64,000 nt of DNA from Falsiroseomonas frigidaquae (GTDB lineage Bacteria > Pseudomonadota > Alphaproteobacteria > Acetobacterales > Acetobacteraceae): the NCBI RefSeq assembly GCF_012163145.1, contig NZ_JAAVTX010000003.1, positions 434,001-498,000 on the forward strand. Reading direction: 5' to 3'. The position numbers were made by a program, and so were the translations under genes. The notes below the pieces were generated by a model that was given only the letters and a program-made list of their open reading frames with translations, was not told the DNA's origin and ran no database searches. How positions within the stretch are numbered: the stretch's first letter is position 1; each line of letters begins with the position of its first letter. Shown here piece by piece: positions 53,785 to 63,906 of the stretch.

Positions 53785-55374
53785 TCACGCGATGCTGAGC
53801 CAACGCATCTCCTGCCCATCCCCGATCGGGCAGAACCGCACGCCGCTGACATTCTTGCGGAAGGGTCCGTACCACTTCGTATTGTGGATGAAGATCGCCG
53901 CCGCATCCTCGGACGAGATGCGGGCCACCTGTTCGTATAGCGGCGCGCGCTTCGCCTGGTCCGGCGTTGCCAGCGCCTCCTCCAGAAGGCGATCGACCTC
54001 CGGGTTGGAGTAGTAGCTGGCATTGCCGCCGCGGTGGCGTTCGGTGTGCAGGATCTCGCCGGCCCAGTTGTGCGGGTCCGCGTAGTAGGTGGAGCGCCAC
54101 AGGAACAGCAGGTCGTACATCTGTTCCGGGTCGCGCATCTTGTTGGAGACGACGGGCCAGGGCTCGTTCAGCAGGCGGCTCTGGATGCCGGCGCGGGTCA
54201 GGCCGTTCTGCAGCAGGGACGCCGCCTGGATCGACTGCTCGTAGCCGATCATGCCGGCGACCACGATCTCCCGCATCGGGGCCTGGACGCGGGCCAGGTG
54301 CCACTTCGCCTTGTCGATGTCGTAGGTGTAGCCGGCCAGATCCTTGGGCGCGCCCCACATCGGGTTCGGCACCACGCCGGTGTTCCGCACCACGGACCCG
54401 CCGAGGATGTTGTTGATCCAGCCATCATAGTCGAAGGAGTAGCAGAGCGCCTTGCGGAAGTTCACGTCGTTCATCGGCGCGCGCTGGTTGTGGATGCAGG
54501 AATAGAACAGCCGGGTCGATTCGGCTTCCATGACGTTGAGGTTCGAATCGCCCTGCAGCCGGGTGATCTGGTCCTGCGGCATGTAGGGATCGGTGCCCTG
54601 GAAGTCGCCGCGGATCAGGCCCAGCACGCGGCTGTTCACCTCCGCCACGTAGCGGAAATCGATCTCCGCAACCCCGGCCGGGCCAAGGAAGTGGTTGTCG
54701 AAGCGCTGTGCCAGGAAGCCGCGCGCCGGGTCGAAGCGGCGGATGATGTAGGAACCCGATCCGGCATCGTTGCGGCCGATGAAGGCCTGGCCCCAGTCGC
54801 CATCCCGCTCATTCCGCTTCAGCAGCGCGCTGTTCACCACATAGATGTCGTGGGTGGTGGCGGCGAAGATGGCCGACGGCGTGGTCAGGTTGAACTGCAC
54901 CGTGTGGCGGTCCAGCGCCTTGGTGCTGCCCGGCGCGACCAGCGGGGCGAAAAGCGGATAGGCGCCCTTCTTGACCGCAAGAATGCGCTCCATGGAATAG
55001 ACCACATCCTCCGCCGTCAGCGGGGCACCGTCATGGAAGGTGACGCCCTGGCGCAGCTTGAAGGTGTAGGTCTTGCCGTCCTCGGACGTCGTGTACGATT
55101 CCGCCAGCCAGGGCTCCAGCTTCGGCGGATTGTCCACCCAGCGCATCAGCCCGTCATAGCAGTTCAGGCGATAGGCGACGCGACCGACATCGAAGGTGGC
55201 GTGCGGGTCCATCGTGTCATAGGCGCTGCCATTGGCGAAGACGATGCGCCCGCCGCCGCCACGCTGCGCCTCCGCGATGCGCGGCAGGCCGGCGGCGCCC
55301 GCGACCGCACCGGCCACCAGCAGATTGCGACGGCTGATCTCCGTCGCGCTTCCCTTCATCCCGCGCGTCGTCAT
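53785..55374 (-). CDS. ABC transporter substrate-binding protein, family 5
   Basis: This 529-residue periplasmic protein has an SRRNLLVAGAVAGAAGLP twin-arginine-like signal ending IAEAQ. KLRQGVTFHDGAPLTAEDVVYSMERIL near residue 110 and NVNFRKALCYSFDYDGWINN-like stretches are SBP_bac_5 features. ATG 55374 is preferred; the inner ATG at 55359 is also possible. It is the first gene of the importer operon and is divergent from the SDR-HyuA-HyuB genes. Those genes may process what it binds. Confidence 0.91.
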   Translation of the reverse strand: MTTRGMKGSATEISRRNLLVAGAVAGAAGLPRIAEAQRGGGGRIVFANGSAYDTMDPHATFDVGRVAYRLNCYDGLMRWVDNPPKLEPWLAESYTTSEDGKTYTFKLRQGVTFHDGAPLTAEDVVYSMERILAVKKGAYPLFAPLVAPGSTKALDRHTVQFNLTTPSAIFAATTHDIYVVNSALLKRNERDGDWGQAFIGRNDAGSGSYIIRRFDPARGFLAQRFDNHFLGPAGVAEIDFRYVAEVNSRVLGLIRGDFQGTDPYMPQDQITRLQGDSNLNVMEAESTRLFYSCIHNQRAPMNDVNFRKALCYSFDYDGWINNILGGSVVRNTGVVPNPMWGAPKDLAGYTYDIDKAKWHLARVQAPMREIVVAGMIGYEQSIQAASLLQNGLTRAGIQSRLLNEPWPVVSNKMRDPEQMYDLLFLWRSTYYADPHNWAGEILHTERHRGGNASYYSNPEVDRLLEEALATPDQAKRAPLYEQVARISSEDAAAIFIHNTKWYGPFRKNVSGVRFCPIGDGQEMRWLSIA

Positions 55375-55547
55375 TGCAGCATCCCCGTCTTTGTATTGAG
55401 GCGATGCTGCACTCGGCGAAATGCGGCCGTCAAGCGGGCTTCGCCGTGCGAAGCGCCCCGCCGGCATGTTGCCGCGCCTGCATTGCACGGATAGCGTTCG
55501 CGCCTGGCGCGGGACCAGGCAGCCGCGCACGACAGGGAAGGGCCCCG

Positions 55548-56300
55548 ATGCCAACCGAGAACAAGGTCGCATTGGTCACCGGCGGCGCACGCGGCATTGG
55601 CCGCGGCTGCGTGCATGCGCTGGCGGAACGTGGCTACGACATCGTCATCGTCGACCTGCTGCGCGCCGAGATGGAGCGCACCCAGGCGGAGGTCGAGGCC
55701 ATGGGCCGCCAGGTGATGATCGCCGAGGCCGATGTCGCCGACCATGCCCGGGCGCGGGAGATCGCGGCGGAGGTCCGGAGCCGCTTCGGCCGCATCGACG
55801 TGCTGGTGAACAATGCCGGCCGCGGCAATCCCACCGGCATATTGGATATCACCGAGGAGGCCTTCGACCGCACCATCGCGGTGAACCTGAAGTCCTGCTT
55901 CAACTACATCCAGGCCCTGGTGCCGCTGATGCAGGAAGGCGGCGGCGGGCGCATCGTCTCCATGTCCTCGCTGAACGCGCATACCGGCGGCGTCACCAGC
56001 GCCGTCTCCAAATTCTCCTATGCCGCGGCCAAGGCCGGCATCATCGGCATGACGAAGGCGCTGGCCAAGGAATTGGGCCCCGAGATCGCCATCAACTGCG
56101 TCTGCCCCGGCGTGATCGAGACCGAGGTCGGCAATAGCCTGACCAAGGCGCGCGGGCCGGAACTGGCGAAGAAGATCATGCTCGGCCGGCTCGGCACGCC
56201 GGCGGATGTGGCACAGCTGGTCGCCTTCCTGGCCACGGCGGAGCCCTTCTTCATCACCGGCCAGGCCATCACCATCGACGGCTTCCAATGGGAGATCTGA
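55548..56300 (+). CDS. SDR-family oxidoreductase
   Basis: This 250-residue classical short-chain dehydrogenase has cofactor motif TGGARGIG (about 11-18), NNAG (about 86-89), a catalytic Ser in the SMSSLNAHTGG strand and the YAAAK motif near residue 158. Asp at the end of strand 2 (IVIVDLLRAE) suggests NAD preference. The last residues GQAITIDGFQWEI are a typical SDR end. GGGAAGG precedes the ATG at 55548. It overlaps hyuA by 13 bases, so its product or substrate may be the ring compound opened by HyuAB. Confidence 0.92.
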   Translation: MPTENKVALVTGGARGIGRGCVHALAERGYDIVIVDLLRAEMERTQAEVEAMGRQVMIAEADVADHARAREIAAEVRSRFGRIDVLVNNAGRGNPTGILDITEEAFDRTIAVNLKSCFNYIQALVPLMQEGGGGRIVSMSSLNAHTGGVTSAVSKFSYAAAKAGIIGMTKALAKELGPEIAINCVCPGVIETEVGNSLTKARGPELAKKIMLGRLGTPADVAQLVAFLATAEPFFITGQAITIDGFQWEI

Positions 56301-58345
56301 GCCCCGTGCGCTACCGGCTCGGCGTCGATATCGGCGGCACCTTCGCGGATTTCTGCGTGCTGAACGAGGCGACCGGGGAGGTCTCGACGCTGAAGGTGCT
56401 GTCCACCCCGGCGACGCCGGGGCAGGAAGTGATCGACGGGCTGCGGGGCGTGCAATCGCGTTTCGGCATCGCTCCGGCCGATCTGGCCTGGTTCACGCAT
56501 GGCACCACCGTCGGCGTGAATGCGGTGATCCAGCGCAAGGGCATCCCGCTCGCGCTCTTCGTCACGCGGAATTTCCGGGATGTGCTGGAGCTGGCGCGGC
56601 TGAAGACACCGGATCCCTACGACCTGCTCTCACGCCGCCCAGCGCCGCTGGTGCCGCGGGAGAGGGTGATCGAGATCGATGGCCGCCTGGATGCTGATGG
56701 CACGGAAGCGGAGCCGCTGGACGAGGCCTCCGTCCGCGCCGCGCTGGAACAGGCGGAGGCGCGGGGCGCGGAGGGCATCGTGCTGGCCCTGCTGCACAGC
56801 TACCGCAACCCGGCGCAGGAACATGCGGCGCAGGCGCTGCTGCGGAAGCTGCGGCCCGAAATGCCGGTCTATTGCTCCGCCGATGTCTGGCCGATCATCC
56901 GCGAATACGAACGCAGCGTCACCGCCGTGGTGCATGGCCATGTGCAGCCGCGCGTCGCCTTCTACCTCGCCTCGCTGCAGCGCGCCCTGCTTGAAGCGGG
57001 CGTGGTGGCGGAGCCGATGGTGACCAAATCCAATGGCGGCGTCATGCGCGCGGAGCTCGGCAAGACGCGCTGCGTGGAGATGCTTTTGTCCGGCACCGCC
57101 GCGGGCGCCATCGGCGCCGCCTTCGTCGCGCGTGCGGCCGGCGTGCCCCGCGCGATGAGCCTGGATATCGGCGGCACCAGCGCGGATGTCGCGGTCATCA
57201 CCGATGGCGCGCCGAGCTATGGCACCGGGGAGCGGGTGGGCGACTTTCCTGTCTATATCCCGACCGTCGCCGTGACCTCGATCGGCGAGGGCGGCGGCTC
57301 CATCGCCGCGGTGGACGCGCTGGGGCTGCTGACGGTGGGGCCGGAGAGTGCCGGCTCCACCCCCGGCCCGGCCTGCTACGGCCGCGGCGGCACGCGCGCC
57401 ACCATCACGGATGCGATGTGCGTGCTCGGCTTCATCGGCCATGGCGCGCTCGGCTATGACAGCGTGCGGGTGCGCGCGGATTTGGCCGCGCAGGCGGTGG
57501 ACGAGGTCGCGCAGGCGCTGGGTCGCAGCCGGCAGGAAACGGCGGAGGCCATCGTGCAGGTCGCGGTCAGCGGCATGTACCGGGAGGTCAGCAAGCTGGC
57601 CGCGCGGCAGGGCGTCGATCCGCGCGATTTCTGCCTCATGCCCTTCGGCGGCGCCGGCCCGATGCTCGGCGCGCTGCTGGCGCGGGAACTGGGGATGCGG
57701 GAAGTGCTGATCCCGTTGACGCCGGGCGTGCTCTCGGCGCTTGGCGGGCTGATCGCCGATATCCGCAGCGACTTCATCGAGACGGTCTATGCCGATCTCG
57801 ATGCCGCCGCCTTGCCCGGCCTCACCGCCGCCTTTGCGCGGCTGCGGGCGGAAGCCACGCGCTGGATCCGCGAGGACCAGCGTTTCGCTGGCGAGGTCAC
57901 CTTCCGGCCCTCCGCCGAAATGCGCTACCGCGGCCAGTCCTTCGAGATCGAGGTGCCTCTGGAGGCCGCCTGGATCGAGGCCGGCGACCTGGCGGCGATG
58001 GCGGAAGCCTTCCACCAGGCGCATGAAAAGCTCTACGGCCATGCGGATCGCGGTGCGCCGATCCAGGCCATCGCGCTGCGCATGGTGGTCGCCGGCACCG
58101 TCCCCGCACCGCGCTTCCCGGAGCAGGACCGCGTCGAAGGCGCGCCCGAGATCCTGCGCGAGGTGGAGGTCTGGCTGGACGGCCGCGCGCAAGCCGCGCC
58201 GCTGTATCTCCGCAGCGCGCTGCGCCACGGCCACCGCTTCAGCGGCCCCTGCATCGTGCTGCAGGACGACACCACAAGCTGCATCCCGCCCGGCATGACG
58301 GGCGAGGTGGACCGCTTCGGCAATCTGCGCCTGACCGCCGGCTGA
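56288..58345 (+). CDS. hyuA: Hydantoinase A/oxoprolinase family subunit
   Basis: This 685-residue protein has the motif GVDIGGTFADFCVLN near residue 12, FTHGTTVGVNAVIQ near 71, LDIGGTSADVAVITD near 294 and FGGAGPMLGALLAREL near 455. It starts at ATG 56288, inside the SDR gene; GTG 56306, with GGGAG 11 bases upstream, is an alternative. It pairs with the following HyuB. It is a distant paralogue of 41775-43889, so the two copies probably differ in substrate. Confidence 0.92.
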   Translation: MGDLSPVRYRLGVDIGGTFADFCVLNEATGEVSTLKVLSTPATPGQEVIDGLRGVQSRFGIAPADLAWFTHGTTVGVNAVIQRKGIPLALFVTRNFRDVLELARLKTPDPYDLLSRRPAPLVPRERVIEIDGRLDADGTEAEPLDEASVRAALEQAEARGAEGIVLALLHSYRNPAQEHAAQALLRKLRPEMPVYCSADVWPIIREYERSVTAVVHGHVQPRVAFYLASLQRALLEAGVVAEPMVTKSNGGVMRAELGKTRCVEMLLSGTAAGAIGAAFVARAAGVPRAMSLDIGGTSADVAVITDGAPSYGTGERVGDFPVYIPTVAVTSIGEGGGSIAAVDALGLLTVGPESAGSTPGPACYGRGGTRATITDAMCVLGFIGHGALGYDSVRVRADLAAQAVDEVAQALGRSRQETAEAIVQVAVSGMYREVSKLAARQGVDPRDFCLMPFGGAGPMLGALLARELGMREVLIPLTPGVLSALGGLIADIRSDFIETVYADLDAAALPGLTAAFARLRAEATRWIREDQRFAGEVTFRPSAEMRYRGQSFEIEVPLEAAWIEAGDLAAMAEAFHQAHEKLYGHADRGAPIQAIALRMVVAGTVPAPRFPEQDRVEGAPEILREVEVWLDGRAQAAPLYLRSALRHGHRFSGPCIVLQDDTTSCIPPGMTGEVDRFGNLRLTAG

Positions 58346-58356
58346 GGAGACGCGCC

Positions 58357-60321
58357 ATGTCGATCGACCCGGTCACGCTGCAGATCTTCGGCAACCACGC
58401 CCAGGCGGCGGCGGAGGCAATGGCCTTCACCCTGTTCCGCACCGCCCATTCCACCTTCGTGAAGGAGACGGAAGATTTCACCACCGGCCTCTGCACGCCG
58501 GAGGGCCTGACCTTCGCCAGCCCGCGCGAACTCGGCGCCACCTGGTTCATCGGGCTGGAATACGGGCCGGTGATCCGCGCGCTGTCCGATTATCGCGAGG
58601 GCGATGTCGGCATGACCAACGACCCCTATAGCGGCTTCGTCTGCACCCACTCGCCGGATATCCATCTGTGGAAGCCGATCTTCTGGGAGGGCGAGCTGGT
58701 CTGCTTCGCCGTCGGGCACATCCACAACACGGATGTCGGCGGCGCCGTGCCCGCCTCCCTATCCCGCGCGCTGACGGAGGTGCATCAGGAAGGCATCCGC
58801 TTCCCGCCCGTGAAGCTGGTGGCGGAGGGCGTGCTGGACCAGCGGCTGCTCGACATCATGCTGCTGAATGTCCGCGCGCCGACGCAGAACTGGGGCGACC
58901 TCAAGGCCCAGCTCGCCGCCATGACCACGGGCGAGCGCAAGGTGCACGAAATGATCCGCCGCTTCGGCCTGGCGACCTTCCGCGCGGGCATGGAGGGGCT
59001 GCTGGACCTGGCGGACCGGCAGGCACGGCGCGTCCTGTCCTCCATCCCGGATGGCGACTACGAATTCCACGACTATCTGGACGAGGATTCGCCGGGCGGC
59101 CTGCCCTGCCGCCTGCAATTGAATATGCGCATCCGGGGCGAGACGGCGGAGCTGGATTTCACGGGGTCGGACCCGCAGCTCACCGCCTCGTTGAACATGC
59201 CGACCGGTGGCTCGGCGCGGCACATCCTGCTGATGGTAGGCTGGAACTACGTGCTCTACACGCTGGACCCGACCATGCTGCTGAATGGCGGGCTGGTGCG
59301 GCCGGCCACCTGCATCGTGCCGGAGGGGACGGTGCTGAACCCGGTCTTCCCGGCCGCCGTCGGCATGCGGTCGATGACCTGCATGCGGCTGCAGGGCGTT
59401 CTGATGGGCGCCTTCCAGCGCGCGGTGCCGGACCGCCTGCCGGCCGGCCCGGCCAGCGGCGGGCCGATGATGAACGTCAACACCACGGACAACCGCACCG
59501 GCCGCCGCGTGATGGCGGCGATCGACCCGATCACCGGCGGCGGCGGCGGCGCGCCGGATGGCGATGGCAATGACGGCTCCGGCGGCAATAGCGGCTTCCT
59601 GAAGAACACGCCGGTGGAGATCAACGAGGCCGAGGTCCCCATCCGCATCCTGCGCTACGGGCTGGAACCGGATTCCGGCGGCGCGGGGAAGCATCGCGGC
59701 GGCATGGCGACGGTGCTGGAATTCCGCGTGCATGCGCCGGGCACGGTGGTAACGGCGCGCAACCGCGACCGGTCCCGCTTCCGGTCCTGGGGCGTGCAGG
59801 GCGGGCTGCCCGGCGCGGCCTCCCAGTTCTGGCGCAACCCGGGCACGGCGCGGGCGGAGAATCTCGGCAATACGGATGTGGTCACGCTGGACCCGGGCGA
59901 TGTCATCCGCATCGTCTGCTCCGGCGCCTCCGGCTGGGGGCCGGCCTGGGAACGGCCGGTGGCGGCGGTGGAGGCGGACCTCGCCGCGGGCAAGATTTCC
60001 GCAACGGCGGCGGCGCGGGATTACGGCGTCGTGCCGGGCAATGCGGCGGAAACGCAGCGCCTGCGCGCCGCCCTGGCCGCCGCGCCGCGCCGCGACTTCG
60101 ATCCGGGTCCGGAGCGCGAAGCCTACGAGCAGGTTTGGACCGATGCGAATTACGCGGCGCTGACCGCAATCCTCGCCAGCCTGCCGATCCATTGGCGCCA
60201 CTACGCCAAGCGCCAGATTTTTGCGCGCATCGAGGCGATGGCGGAACGCCGCGGCGATGGCAGCGAGGTGCAGGCCGCCTTCGCCGCGCTGCGCCAGGAC
60301 TTCCCGCAGATCGCAGGCTAA
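58357..60321 (+). CDS. hyuB: Hydantoinase B/oxoprolinase family subunit (long form)
   Basis: This 654-residue protein has HyuB landmarks DPVTLQIFGNHAQAAAEAMAFTLFRTAHSTFVKE in sections, GDVGMTNDPYSGFVCTHSPDIHL and the late DSGGAGKHRGGMATVLEF. It is about 110 residues longer than the other copy; the extra part is a C-terminal charged tail (from about residue 560). A Gly/Asp-rich insert GGGGGAPDGDGNDGSGGNSG lies near residue 400. GGAG precedes the ATG. It overlaps the convergent decarboxylase-like gene by 4 bases. Confidence 0.92.
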   Translation: MSIDPVTLQIFGNHAQAAAEAMAFTLFRTAHSTFVKETEDFTTGLCTPEGLTFASPRELGATWFIGLEYGPVIRALSDYREGDVGMTNDPYSGFVCTHSPDIHLWKPIFWEGELVCFAVGHIHNTDVGGAVPASLSRALTEVHQEGIRFPPVKLVAEGVLDQRLLDIMLLNVRAPTQNWGDLKAQLAAMTTGERKVHEMIRRFGLATFRAGMEGLLDLADRQARRVLSSIPDGDYEFHDYLDEDSPGGLPCRLQLNMRIRGETAELDFTGSDPQLTASLNMPTGGSARHILLMVGWNYVLYTLDPTMLLNGGLVRPATCIVPEGTVLNPVFPAAVGMRSMTCMRLQGVLMGAFQRAVPDRLPAGPASGGPMMNVNTTDNRTGRRVMAAIDPITGGGGGAPDGDGNDGSGGNSGFLKNTPVEINEAEVPIRILRYGLEPDSGGAGKHRGGMATVLEFRVHAPGTVVTARNRDRSRFRSWGVQGGLPGAASQFWRNPGTARAENLGNTDVVTLDPGDVIRIVCSGASGWGPAWERPVAAVEADLAAGKISATAAARDYGVVPGNAAETQRLRAALAAAPRRDFDPGPEREAYEQVWTDANYAALTAILASLPIHWRHYAKRQIFARIEAMAERRGDGSEVQAAFAALRQDFPQIAG

Positions 60322-60866
60322 GGCAGCGGGTGCTCATCGAGGCAGGGCTGGTAGGACGGCTCCACCTCGATCCCCGCGGCGCCGAGGAAGCGCACCACGC
60401 CGCAATAGAAGGCGATGATCACCAGCAGGTCGGTCAGGCTTTCGGCATCGAGATGCGCCTGCACCTCGGCGAAGGTCGCGTCGCTCAGCGCGTCGGCACC
60501 ATGCGCCATCTCCCGCGCCGCGCGCAGCACCGCGCGCGCGGCGGGCTCCAGCGCGGAGACGCCGCCATTGGTCTCCACGGCAATGGCGCGGATGTCGTCA
60601 TCGGTCACGCCGAAATCACGGCCGATGGCGACATGGTGCGACCATTCGTAAGGCGACCGCGCCACCCACCCCACCTGCAGGATCGCCAATTCGCGCAGCC
60701 GCGCATCCAGCGCGCTGTGGTGGCGGATATGGTTCGCCAGGCCGAGGAAGGCGCGCGTCATCCCCGTGCTGTTCACCATGGCGCGGTACAGGTTGATCGG
60801 CCGCACCAGCAGCGCCTGGTCTTCCGGCGCCAGGTCTGCGGCGTCGCGATAGGGCAGTCTCGCCAT
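60318..60866 (-). CDS. Carboxymuconolactone decarboxylase family protein
   Basis: This 182-residue alpha-helical protein of the AhpD/CMD fold has LRELAILQVGWVARSPYEWSHHVAIGRDFG near residues 57-85, with the EW-x-HH pattern of decarboxylase-like members. The AhpD CxxC redox pair is absent, so alkylhydroperoxidase activity is not expected. GAGGAGG lies 5 bases before the ATG at 60866. It is 56 bases downstream of the P450 gene on the same strand and may join that operon. Its reaction is unknown. Confidence 0.86.
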   Translation of the reverse strand: MARLPYRDAADLAPEDQALLVRPINLYRAMVNSTGMTRAFLGLANHIRHHSALDARLRELAILQVGWVARSPYEWSHHVAIGRDFGVTDDDIRAIAVETNGGVSALEPAARAVLRAAREMAHGADALSDATFAEVQAHLDAESLTDLLVIIAFYCGVVRFLGAAGIEVEPSYQPCLDEHPLP

Positions 60867-60922: not shown

Positions 60923-62278
60923 TCAGGCCGCGTCGAAGGTGACCGGGAAATGCACCGGGAAGGGCGTGCCGGCCCCATCCACCGGCCCCGCACGCCGCAG
61001 CCCCGCCCGCCGCAGCAATGGCTTGAGAAGCTGCGGGATGACGGCTTGGTTGATATGGGCACCGAAGCAGGTGTGCATGCCATAGCCCCAGAGGATATAG
61101 GCCTCCGCCCCCCGCCCGGGCCGGAACTCCTTGGGCCTGTCATGCGCGATGGGGTCGAACATGGCGGAGAGGTTGGCGACCAGCACCATCGCCCCTGCCG
61201 GCACGCGCCGTGCCCGTAGCGTGCCGCGGGCGATCACCGTCTCCCGCACCGCACGGCGGTAGATGAAGGGGTTCACCGGGTCGAAGCGCAGCGCCTCCCA
61301 CAGCACCGCCGCCAGCGCGGCATCGTCATCGGCGCGGGCGGCGGCCTGGGCGGCGGCAAGCGCCTCCGGCCGGTCCAGCAGCGTGTCCAGCGCCTTGACG
61401 CTCGCCTTGGACAAGGTGGGCACCAGCCCGATCAACAACCCGATCAGATTGTTCCGGATGCCGAGGTCATCCATGCCCGGTACGCCCGCCGCCTGCAGCG
61501 CCAGGCAGCGATCCAGCACCTGGTCCGTGCCGCTGGGCTGCGCCTTGCGCGCGGCGATGGCGGCATCGAGCCAGGCGCGGCAGGCGCTAGCGGCCTCCAG
61601 CGCCGCGCGCGTCACCTTCTCCTCCCCCGCCAGGTCGACGAAGAGGTACCAGAACATCCGCGTGGTCCAATCGGCCATGACGGGGCCGGAGGGGCCGGGC
61701 GTGCCGAAATACTGGCCGAGCAACCCGGTCAGCACCGGCAGCGTCAGCGTGGCCGGCACGTCGATCCGCCCGCCGGCGGCCGCGACGATCGCCTCCGCCT
61801 GCGTCGCCACATGGGGAATGACGATCTCCGGCACGTCGCTGCGCCGCACCGCGAGCCGCATATTTGACACGTCCCGCGTATAGGCGGGGCTGTCCTGCAT
61901 GCCGAGGAAGAAGTTCTCGCCATCGGTGATGGCGCGCATCTTCGGCTCATAGACCACGGCGAAGTCGGATTCGCGTTCCAGCACCTCCGTCACATCGGCA
62001 TGGCGGGTGACGATGACGGTGCCGGTGTTCTCATAGGCCGCGATCAGCTTGCGTTGCAGCGCCAGGTTCGGCCGCGCGGCGCGCAGCAGGGCGAAGACCA
62101 GGCGCTGGTTTTCCGTGGCACCCAGCAGCGCCGCGATGCGCTGCGCCCTGCCTTCCGCGCCGCCGGCATAGGCGCGCGCGCCGCGCACTGCCAGCCTGCC
62201 CGCCGCGCCCAGCGCCGCCCCCGCCATGCCCAGCCGCACGCCCGCCGCATGGGCGGCATTGCCCAAAAGGCCGCTCAT
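60923..62278 (-). CDS. Cytochrome P450 with atypical I-helix
   Basis: This 451-residue P450 has the haem loop WGYGMHTCFG with ligand Cys404 and the K-helix motif Glu328-x-x-Arg331 (EALR). In the I-helix, where most P450s have an acid-Thr pair for O2 activation, the sequence reads GLVPTLSKAS: Pro287 takes the acid position and Thr288 follows. Peroxide-using CYP152 enzymes also have Pro in this place. Its N-terminus overlaps the stop of the DyP peroxidase gene by 4 bases, so the two proteins should be made together. No ferredoxin or reductase gene is near. Substrate is unknown. Confidence 0.9.
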   Translation of the reverse strand: MSGLLGNAAHAAGVRLGMAGAALGAAGRLAVRGARAYAGGAEGRAQRIAALLGATENQRLVFALLRAARPNLALQRKLIAAYENTGTVIVTRHADVTEVLERESDFAVVYEPKMRAITDGENFFLGMQDSPAYTRDVSNMRLAVRRSDVPEIVIPHVATQAEAIVAAAGGRIDVPATLTLPVLTGLLGQYFGTPGPSGPVMADWTTRMFWYLFVDLAGEEKVTRAALEAASACRAWLDAAIAARKAQPSGTDQVLDRCLALQAAGVPGMDDLGIRNNLIGLLIGLVPTLSKASVKALDTLLDRPEALAAAQAAARADDDAALAAVLWEALRFDPVNPFIYRRAVRETVIARGTLRARRVPAGAMVLVANLSAMFDPIAHDRPKEFRPGRGAEAYILWGYGMHTCFGAHINQAVIPQLLKPLLRRAGLRRAGPVDGAGTPFPVHFPVTFDAA

Positions 62279-63906
62279 GTCGGGTCGACGATGCCGGCGG
62301 CGATCATCCGCAGCGCCGTCATGCTCGGCGTGAAGAAATATTCACCGCCGCGCGTCTCCACGAATTGCGGCAGGCGGTCGCAGATGAAGGGCGGCTTGTC
62401 CCCGGCCGGGTCGGCGGCGATGACGAATTTCGCCTCCGGGCCGTGGTTGCCGATGATCGGGCAGGTGTCGTTGCCGGCGTTGAAGTCCAGCCCGTACTGC
62501 ATCCATTGCTGCTGCACGAATTCGAACTGCCGGAACAGGCTGGCGCAGGTGGCCAGCAGGACGATGCCGTGTTCCTGCCCATCCGTGGTCGCATCCGGCG
62601 CCGCCTGCCCATAGGGCAGGCCACGGCGCAGGATGCGGCGGCGGTTGTTGAGCACGGAGCCGTTGAGCTGCTTCGGATCGTTGGAGGCCAGCAGCGGGTC
62701 CATCATGTCCCGCGTATTGGACCGGCGCAGATGCGACCCGAAGGGGCATTTGGCGCCATGCGGGTCGTCGCGGAAGGTGAATTCCACCATCGCCCGCGCC
62801 AGCGCCGCCAGGGTCGCCTTGTCCTCGCGCTTCTCCGCCTCCGCCCGCCGCTGCTGGAAGGCGCGCCATTCGGGATAGGTGGGGGCGGCGATCAGCGGCA
62901 CGCCGTCGGACCAGCGGCCGGCGATCTTGGCCTTCAGCGTCTCGCAGGCTTCGTCCTGCGGCACCTGCATCACCGCGGCGAATTTCACCGCCATGCGGTC
63001 CATCGCATCCCGCCAGGCGGCGACATTCTGGTGCAGCTTGCGATAGGCGACGAAGGTGCCGTTGCGGCTGAAGGGCAGCGGCATGCCGGCACCCGGAATC
63101 TCCTGCGATTCATCCGGGTGGCCGAGCAGGAATTCCCCGGTGGCGAGCGGCGCCCAGCTCTGGTCCGGCAGCAGCTTGCCCTGGCCGATCACGGCACCTG
63201 CCATGCGGTCGGGCGCATACTGCCCATCGAACACCGCATCACCGATCGCATCGATGAAGCCGAAATGCTCCCTCGGGCTGGGCGCCGGGCTGCCATCCGG
63301 CCCGTGCTCCATCAGGGCCGACAGATCCTGCCAGCGTTCATCCTGGCCGCGATGGCCGGACAGCAGCGTGACCTTGCCTTCGGTGGCGCGCACCAGCGCC
63401 TCGATCTCCGCCGTCACCTCGTCCAGCCGCGCCACCGGCGTGCCGTCCGGGTTCATCTGCGCATTCAGCGTGACCAGCACATGCACGCGCCGCCGCGGGT
63501 CGTCCTGCCACAGCCAGACGGGGTCCCAGGCCTCCCCGATCGGCTTCGGAAAATTGTCGCACAGGATGTCGGCGCGGGCCGGCATGCCGTCGATGAACTC
63601 ATCCGGCATGCCGCGCAGCGTGCGGATCGGCACGCCCAGCGCCAGCAGCCCCCAGAAGGTGAAGGCGACATTCACCGCGACCTGCGGACGCGGCTGGAAC
63701 ACCGTACCCGGCGGCGGCGCCTTGTCCTTGGAGGATGGCCAGCGCAGCGCCGTGGTCACATAGGGCCGCACCATATCCAGCAGGTTGCGCCCGGCGCGGC
63801 CATCCGCGACGTTCAGCAGCAGGCAGCGCCCCTTGGGGAAGCCGAGCTTGCCATAGGCGGTCAGGACATTGCCCTGGATATCCGCAAGATCGAGCTGCGT
63901 GGCCAT
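62275..63906 (-). CDS. DyP-type haem peroxidase
   Basis: This 543-residue DyP peroxidase has the distal motif GFIDA (216-220) in place of GxxDG, keeping Asp219, and the proximal haem ligand His392 in CPFGSHLRRSNTRD. FLLGHPDE, GTFVAYRKLHQNV and RRRILRRGLPYG are typical of the larger (D-like) subclass. There is no signal peptide or Tat motif, so it is likely cytosolic. ATG 63906 is used; the frame to 63963 adds non-conserved residues. It is coupled to the downstream P450 by an ATGA overlap. It uses H2O2 and could feed, protect or act in series with that P450. Confidence 0.92.
   Translation of the reverse strand: MATQLDLADIQGNVLTAYGKLGFPKGRCLLLNVADGRAGRNLLDMVRPYVTTALRWPSSKDKAPPPGTVFQPRPQVAVNVAFTFWGLLALGVPIRTLRGMPDEFIDGMPARADILCDNFPKPIGEAWDPVWLWQDDPRRRVHVLVTLNAQMNPDGTPVARLDEVTAEIEALVRATEGKVTLLSGHRGQDERWQDLSALMEHGPDGSPAPSPREHFGFIDAIGDAVFDGQYAPDRMAGAVIGQGKLLPDQSWAPLATGEFLLGHPDESQEIPGAGMPLPFSRNGTFVAYRKLHQNVAAWRDAMDRMAVKFAAVMQVPQDEACETLKAKIAGRWSDGVPLIAAPTYPEWRAFQQRRAEAEKREDKATLAALARAMVEFTFRDDPHGAKCPFGSHLRRSNTRDMMDPLLASNDPKQLNGSVLNNRRRILRRGLPYGQAAPDATTDGQEHGIVLLATCASLFRQFEFVQQQWMQYGLDFNAGNDTCPIIGNHGPEAKFVIAADPAGDKPPFICDRLPQFVETRGGEYFFTPSMTALRMIAAGIVDPT

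Follow-up and report, generated by a model that had tools for sequence, protein, structure and literature searches.

A DyP-type peroxidase and a cytochrome P450 in one conserved gene unit of Falsiroseomonas frigidaquae: a candidate two-haem-enzyme oxidation module

What does a cytochrome P450 do when its gene overlaps that of a peroxidase and no ferredoxin gene lies nearby? The question is raised by a 64,000-nucleotide stretch of Falsiroseomonas frigidaquae DNA (assembly GCF_012163145.1, contig NZ_JAAVTX010000003.1, positions 434,001 to 498,000; hereafter the window). The initial annotation of this stretch had described a DyP-type peroxidase gene ending within the start region of a P450 gene, and both open reading frames (ORFs) are indeed present on the minus strand, joined by ATGA at 62278-62275. 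We found that the pair belongs to a conserved unit of four genes in the order U215-U316-DyP-P450, that relatives of this P450 recur beside a haem peroxidase which may be a DyP or one of two other kinds, and that the Asp or Glu of the P450 acid-alcohol pair is changed to Pro in the DyP-linked branch.

Haem peroxidase partners of the P450 family

A scan of 84,980 species genomes with an alignment of the P450 gave 95 relatives, from which 79 loci were kept, and partners were detected by profiles built from the neighbourhoods of these loci. A DyP accompanies the P450 in 33 loci, an animal-type haem peroxidase (meaning PF03098, the family that contains COX) in 27 and a RoxA-like dihaem protein in 15, which leaves four with no partner, two of them at contig ends (L038 and L093) and two real exceptions (L043 and L083). 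The side and strand of the partner are constant within each kind (33/33, 27/27 and 15/15): the DyP lies upstream of the P450 at a profile gap of -48 to 480 bases, the RoxA-like gene also upstream at -18 to 805 bases, and the animal-type peroxidase downstream at -3 to 926 bases. Pfam checks of the partners found PF21419 in all seven RoxA-like loci tested of the 15 and PF03098 in L085, L103 and L031, each above its cut-off, and the di-heme peroxidase model NF040606 was tested on L099 alone. As a control, none of 33 generic P450 loci has any such partner in a flank of about 1.5 kb, the P450 profile itself being detected in 30 of them, whereas 8/8 family loci with an equal flank have one. The pairing recurs over genera and classes, and also in one Solirubrobacteraceae and one Planctomycetaceae metagenome-assembled genome (MAG). 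In the 33 DyP-type loci, the distances of DyP and P450 correlate with r 0.85, a value reached in 0 of 999 permutations. Branching in the tree is partly at odds with taxonomy.

Further genome samples were searched as well. Among 60 genomes, the window's included, eight passed the thresholds for the P450 and eight those for the DyP; both genes occur in the window genome, in five others of the genus and in one genome of another family (G042), whereas G020 holds the DyP only, G021 a P450 relative only and nine further genus genomes neither gene. The gene order U215-U316-DyP-P450 is identical in the six genus genomes, and a TGA within the P450 of G008 is a stop close to the end of the aligned stretch. 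In the family sample (249 genomes) the DyP was found in 11, with the P450 adjacent in nine, a contig end in one and no P450 in one (G020). In the phylum sample (398 genomes) nine had the DyP, seven of them with the P450 no more than about 1.2 kb from the cluster; the P450 follows about 1.1 kb after the DyP in G861 and G873, and stands upstream of U215, not downstream of the DyP, in G560. A mixed cluster in G734 (L166:4388-8083) bridges two partner types, as U215 and the DyP are joined there by a RoxA-like gene where the P450 would be; this RoxA-like gene is spread over two frames. The order sample (396 genomes) gave 34 P450 matches in 32 genomes; four of these matches had no locus and are outside the partner count of 30. 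In the searches of order, family and phylum, scoring was limited to the first three to five candidates for many genomes, so that members may be missed, and the samples overlap: several of the 79 loci look like genomes G001, G002, G003, G005, G008, G021, G042, G245 and G884, and the censuses are therefore not independent.

The four-gene unit and its two active sites

The ATGA junction occurs in all six same-genus genomes that have the pair, the window's own among them, the P450s of the other five being 63-92% identical. When the comparison is extended to the 33 DyP-type loci, the DyP precedes its P450 in every one, on the same strand and within 0.5 kb, and a four-base overlap is present in 11 (ATGA in eight, GTGA in three). 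Because it is kept in the same-genus genomes and the DyP is upstream in all 33 loci, we regard the junction as more than chance. The absence of a nearby ferredoxin gene, also claimed by the initial annotation, fits our search: Fer2 (PF00111) has no match on the contig and 16 on other contigs, other ferredoxin families and reductases not having been searched. When ferredoxins were sought with a regular expression for cysteines, all matches were in what we read as spurious GC-rich frames.

Upstream of the DyP on the same strand, and wholly or mostly past the window end, lie U316 and U215, at gaps of 13 and 15 bases. Where DyP-type loci had enough upstream DNA, a U215-like domain was found in 28/28 and U316 in 24/28. 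Neither protein matched any Pfam or NCBIfam family, and no sequence relative of either was found in the PDB; profile comparison indicates that the two are homologous to each other (96%), and rejected U215 as a DyP-like domain (probability 0.3%). The middle part of U316 is hydrophobic, with two membrane helices by eye reading. In the Planctomycetaceae MAG, the U215 and DyP domains form a single ORF of 836 aa (L072:6447-8954), after which the P450 is split over two frames. A search for U215 in 385 genomes of the class found four, all four with a DyP too.

The P450 carries the hallmarks of its superfamily, with ExxR present as EALR and a Cys loop, WGYGMHTCFG, in which Trp stands for the Phe of FxxGxHxCxG. 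The Cys loop has standard spacing, unlike that of the CYP74 allene oxide synthase, which has a nine-residue insertion there. The I-helix departs from the conventional O2/NAD(P)H monooxygenase, since Pro287-Thr288 takes the place of the acid-alcohol pair. CYP152 peroxygenases are peroxide-dependent P450s without this pair; they have Arg-Pro instead, whereas the window clade has Pro-Thr and an adjoining peroxidase gene. According to passages of PMC9112060, the acid-alcohol pair passes on the protons with which O2 is activated, and H2O2-driven turnover benefits from it as well.

We tallied the I-helix by partner over the 79 loci and the window P450. The DyP-linked P450s (n=34) have Pro-Thr in 30, the window's included, Pro-Gln in two, Asp-Thr in one and Asp-Gly in one, so that Pro is found in 32/34. 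P450s linked to an animal-type peroxidase (n=27) have Glu-Asn in 14, Glu-Ser in 11 and Glu-Thr in two, and all 15 linked to a RoxA-like protein have Glu-Thr; Glu thus occupies the acid position in 42/42 P450s with either of these partners. The four without partner show Pro-Thr twice, Pro-Gln once and Glu-Thr once, and generic P450s have Glu or Asp followed by Thr in 29/29 alignable cases of the 33 loci. In the order sample, Pro was found in 13/13 DyP-linked P450s and Glu in 5/5 with another partner, the 12 partnerless ones having Pro in three and Glu in nine; six P450s newly read in the phylum sample have GxxPT by regular expression. The Fisher value for partner against I-helix acid ignores kinship. 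In a tree made by a quick method, all 34 DyP-linked rows fall on the same side of one starred branch, so that there were few changes of motif and partner. A matched function would agree with this pattern but is not proven by it.

The DyP passes the Dyp_perox_C cut-off (24.6 bits against 20) and stays below those of TIGR01413 (82.4 against 100.5) and DyP_N (24.8 against 27.5); its best sequence match in the PDB is 8re2 (E 4.4e-32, phmmer). It appears to belong to the sequence family of 8re2, 8re3 and other DyP peroxidases, and has their catalytic Asp and His. The physiological roles of DyP peroxidases are mostly unclear. We take Asp219 to be the distal catalytic Asp and His392 the proximal haem ligand; as both are kept in 30/30 rows of an alignment of 30 of the 33 DyP-type loci, the enzyme looks catalytically competent, with Ala replacing the last Gly of GxxDG in the window protein. 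The aligned DyPs end in DPT in 24 of 30 cases (window 62275-62289), including cases without P450 overlap.

Sister branches and flanking genes

In 24/27 animal-type loci, that is 24/25 of the actinobacterial ones, a desaturase-like gene resembling that of L107 lies beside the P450 on the opposite strand, its identity as a fatty-acid desaturase (PF00487) having been Pfam-tested on L107 only, and 25/27 have the Glu-Asn or Glu-Ser I-helix. Desaturase-like gene, P450 and PF03098 peroxidase adjoin in Actinomadura, Actinocorallia, Nonomuraea and Streptosporangium (27 loci among L071-L109), and we regard these loci as a candidate bacterial oxylipin pathway. The RoxA-like dihaem gene stands upstream of the P450 in Xanthobacter, Nitrosomonas, Nitrotoga, Xenococcus and others. 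In one such locus, L099, a patatin gene (PF01734) follows the P450; a gene of L031 and L075 was considered as a patatin and rejected, as it has no Pfam match at 0.01 and only its L099 relative matches. The desaturase, patatin and RoxA-like genes of the sister branches point to lipids, and we count alongside them the LCAT-like hydrolase that follows the DyP-P450 pair in L062.

Coordinates of the features are collected in Table 1.

Table 1. Features of the DyP-P450 locus and example loci of the sister branches
Feature	Position	Strand	Evidence or remark
Cytochrome P450, 451 aa, DyP-linked clade	60923..62278	-	PF00067, 34.3 bits against cut-off 22.8
DyP-type peroxidase, 543 aa	62275..63906	-	Dyp_perox_C, TIGR01413, PDB 8re2/8re3 matches
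ATGA stop/start overlap of DyP with P450	62275..62278	-	Identical at 6/6 same-genus loci
P450 I-helix Pro287-Thr288 (GLVPTLS), Pro at the Asp/Glu position of the acid-alcohol pair	61415..61420	-	Alignments
P450 haem-ligand Cys404	61067..61069	-	Invariant in 6/6
DyP Asp219, GxxD motif	63250..63252	-	Invariant with 5 relatives, and in 30/30 rows
DyP His392	62731..62733	-	Invariant with 5 relatives, and in 30/30 rows
U316 3' end, 316 aa	63920..64000 (whole gene 63920-64870, L007:3920-4870)	-	Beyond-window sequence
U215, 215 aa	64886-65533 (L007:4886-5533)	Upstream of U316, same strand	Beyond window
CMD-family gene	60318..60866	-	PF02627, 52 bits; 56 bases downstream of P450
Example desaturase-P450-PF03098 loci	L107:8279-9721; L085:11140-12726
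RoxA-like loci	L065, L066, L068, L069, L070, L074, L077, L078, L084, L089, L091, L092, L099, L110, L111

The CMD gene 56 bases past the P450, which the initial annotation had noticed, is borne out by its PF02627 match, and was ruled out as a core member, being present in 4/33 DyP-type loci only, all Falsiroseomonas or Roseomonas. Six extra families recur in four or five of the 33 loci (ORFs of at least 110 aa, 8-kb flanks); among them, in Acetobacteraceae and Roseomonadaceae, are the CMD gene and one of TctC type (Pfam test on L036). They also include type II secretion genes (T2SSF, T2SSE), found 6-9 kb upstream of the P450 in L054, L058, L059 and L061, which belong to one gammaproteobacterium and three Sphingomonadales. 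Beside the window cluster (53785-60321), the other strand carries what we take to be a gene of SDR type and a pair of large genes that resemble the A and B subunits of hydantoinase/oxoprolinase; a presumed solute-binding-protein-like gene stands opposite. PADLOC gave no match to a defence system for five proteins. Directly upstream of the P450 in partnerless loci there is a small protein without Pfam family (L193:7948-8679, L194:6062-6802), and a protein of like appearance, judged by eye, stands before that of G021 (L031:8890-9495). As an allene-oxide-cyclase-like protein it was rejected, with no Pfam match over the cut-off and no NCBIfam match.

Competing readings and their meaning

We read U215-U316-DyP-P450 as a dedicated two-haem-enzyme oxidation module whose P450 consumes a DyP-linked peroxide without ferredoxin or NAD(P)H, a reading that we hold tentatively, with a confidence just short of even. 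U316 would probably keep the module at the membrane; the DyP would act on an unsaturated, lipid-like substrate, on which it makes or processes a peroxide; and the P450, which lacks the distal acid on which efficient activation of O2 depends, would split the O-O bond of the DyP-derived peroxide, rearranging or oxygenating the same molecule. That the acid is lost and a dedicated haem peroxidase stands alongside favours such hydroperoxide-consuming chemistry over monooxygenation. We infer an organic hydroperoxide as the P450 substrate, supplied by the DyP and lipid-like in nature, and proteins that associate. The initial annotation had offered either the peroxide shunt or work in series with the peroxidase; the second appears to fit better and the H2O2 shunt less well, since Pro stands in the place of the distal acid, which would be of help in cleaving H2O2.

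The arrangement suggests a bacterial counterpart of the animal and fungal two-step enzyme pairs that make oxylipins from lipids. Passages of PMC13049297 describe prostacyclin and thromboxane synthase and the fungal linoleate diol, epoxy alcohol and allene oxide synthases (LDS, EAS and AOS) as self-sufficient P450s rearranging preformed peroxides, with an amide, nonpolar or Thr residue above the iron; the fungal 9-AOS has Pro in that motif, for which no alignment with the window P450 family was obtained. In the fungal fusions of dioxygenase (DOX) and P450 (DOX-CYP) treated there, a haem dioxygenase feeds hydroperoxide to the self-sufficient P450; in our sister branch, a PF03098 peroxidase, of the COX family, stands beside the P450. 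Unlike those single polypeptides with an N-terminal COX-like domain, the window pair consists of two genes with a DyP partner, the additional U215 and U316 and a Pro-Thr I-helix. When COX works with prostacyclin synthase (CYP8A1) or thromboxane synthase (CYP5A1), a haem peroxidase/dioxygenase similarly feeds a P450 that is independent of an electron chain (PMC13049297, in part). The likeness drawn here, as with the fungal fusions, is one of pairing logic, and the window partner is a DyP. Finally, as parts of PMC4496055 report, the oleate diol synthase of P. aeruginosa (10S-DOX and 7,10-diol synthase) consists of two linked haem enzymes, a dioxygenase and then a hydroperoxide isomerase, which are RoxA-related dihaem proteins and kin to the partner in 15/79 loci, but there both steps are dihaem and no P450 takes part. 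Among the matches listed, judged by title or start of abstract, we found no published account of the DyP-P450 pair (most subscription papers and all preprints being outside the scope), whether under DyP, under bacterial haem peroxidases or COX with P450s and oxylipins, under RoxA with P450s or under the acid-alcohol pair; the part of PMC4420034 that was covered mentions only a fungal peroxidase-P450 fusion, and that of PMC11719350 had no match to the terms sought.

Several observations weigh against the module as we read it. The 30 order-sample loci comprise 13 with DyP, two with an animal-type and three with a RoxA-like partner, and 12 with no partner within 1.5 kb; ten of these 12, re-read in stretches of 12.9-15 kb, still had none by profile (L180 and L189, the latter near a contig end, were outside this re-reading). 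Eleven of the 12 P450s are only 32-45% identical to that of the window, and the twelfth (L169, 62%) is from a genome with a second, DyP-linked copy, so that members of the close clade usually have a haem partner and distant ones need not. The tie to a peroxide-handling haem enzyme suggested by the initial annotation is upheld by the recurrent pairing, in which two other haem peroxidase kinds replace the DyP, but does not extend to all distant members. Related P450s mostly without a DyP gene, which it had named as speaking against the tie, are not what the close clade holds; distant members, with another haem peroxidase or none, do partly answer to that description. In G020 and G681, U215- and U316-type genes accompany a DyP with no P450 nearby. 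The acid is kept in L062 and L072, which are DyP-linked, and L169, L170 and L172 have Pro at this position with no adjoining DyP. The acid-alcohol pair is complete in P450s linked to a RoxA-like protein, so that not every member of the family can be counted as a non-monooxygenase. In the tree, partner and motif are traits of whole clades and changed independently only a few times. We recognised no lipid gene that recurs beside the DyP-type clusters (33 loci, 8-kb flanks), and it is therefore from the sister branches that we take the lipid substrate. Known DyPs are moreover peroxidases and are not known as fatty-acid dioxygenases.

The same genomic pairing, the lack of Fer2 matches on the contig and the loss of the O2-activating acid would also suit an H2O2-driven peroxygenase, with the neighbouring DyP setting or scavenging the H2O2 level. 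We find this unlikely: the acid-alcohol pair helps compound I to form in H2O2-driven P450s, as stated in part of PMC9112060, and here there is Pro, while the desaturase-linked animal-type peroxidase and the RoxA-like partners suggest oxygenation of unsaturated substrates rather than control of H2O2. Somewhat less probable still is an ordinary NAD(P)H monooxygenase with a remotely encoded ferredoxin, the DyP doing a separate step of the same pathway. Remote redox partners are common among bacterial P450s, the genome has its Fer2 matches elsewhere, Thr288 is retained and the RoxA-linked cousins keep the acid-alcohol pair, all of which speak for it, but Pro for Asp/Glu in 32/34 DyP-linked against 0/29 generic P450s speaks against it. 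The conserved catalytic residues would agree with classical DyP chemistry, which is one-electron oxidation, and so with a DyP that turns its substrate (phenol, aromatic or polyene) into a radical and a P450 that acts on this radical or its coupling product with no hydroperoxide; this is improbable, as it leaves unexplained the pairing of the same P450 family with two other haem enzyme kinds. That the genes only co-travel on horizontally moving DNA, without joint function, has in its favour the patchy distribution (11/249 family-sample genomes) and a tree that departs from taxonomy in places, but we give it very little credence in view of the order fixed in 33/33 loci (in G560, of the phylum sample, the P450 is upstream instead), the overlaps, the correlated divergence and the matching I-helix change.

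The two-haem-enzyme module can be carried further, into a version that we consider doubtful. The P450 family would be a general hydroperoxide-processing module with three unrelated haem peroxidases (DyP, animal-type/COX-family and dihaem RoxA-like) as suppliers and an I-helix chemistry that differs by partner; its DyP branch would be a membrane-anchored U215-U316-DyP-P450 in which the DyP is a lipid or isoprenoid dioxygenase making a new bacterial class of oxylipin-like signals. To our knowledge, no DyP has been described as such a dioxygenase.

U215 and U316 represent two protein families, without Pfam or NCBIfam match, that accompany the DyP. If the module is what we propose, DyP peroxidases would gain a dedicated partner enzyme and a pathway, and DyP and dihaem proteins would be new first enzymes in the animal and fungal logic of a haem dioxygenase followed by a P450. 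The natural series Pro-Thr, Glu-Asn/Ser and Glu-Thr would then test how the distal site of a P450 chooses between O2, H2O2 and organic hydroperoxides.

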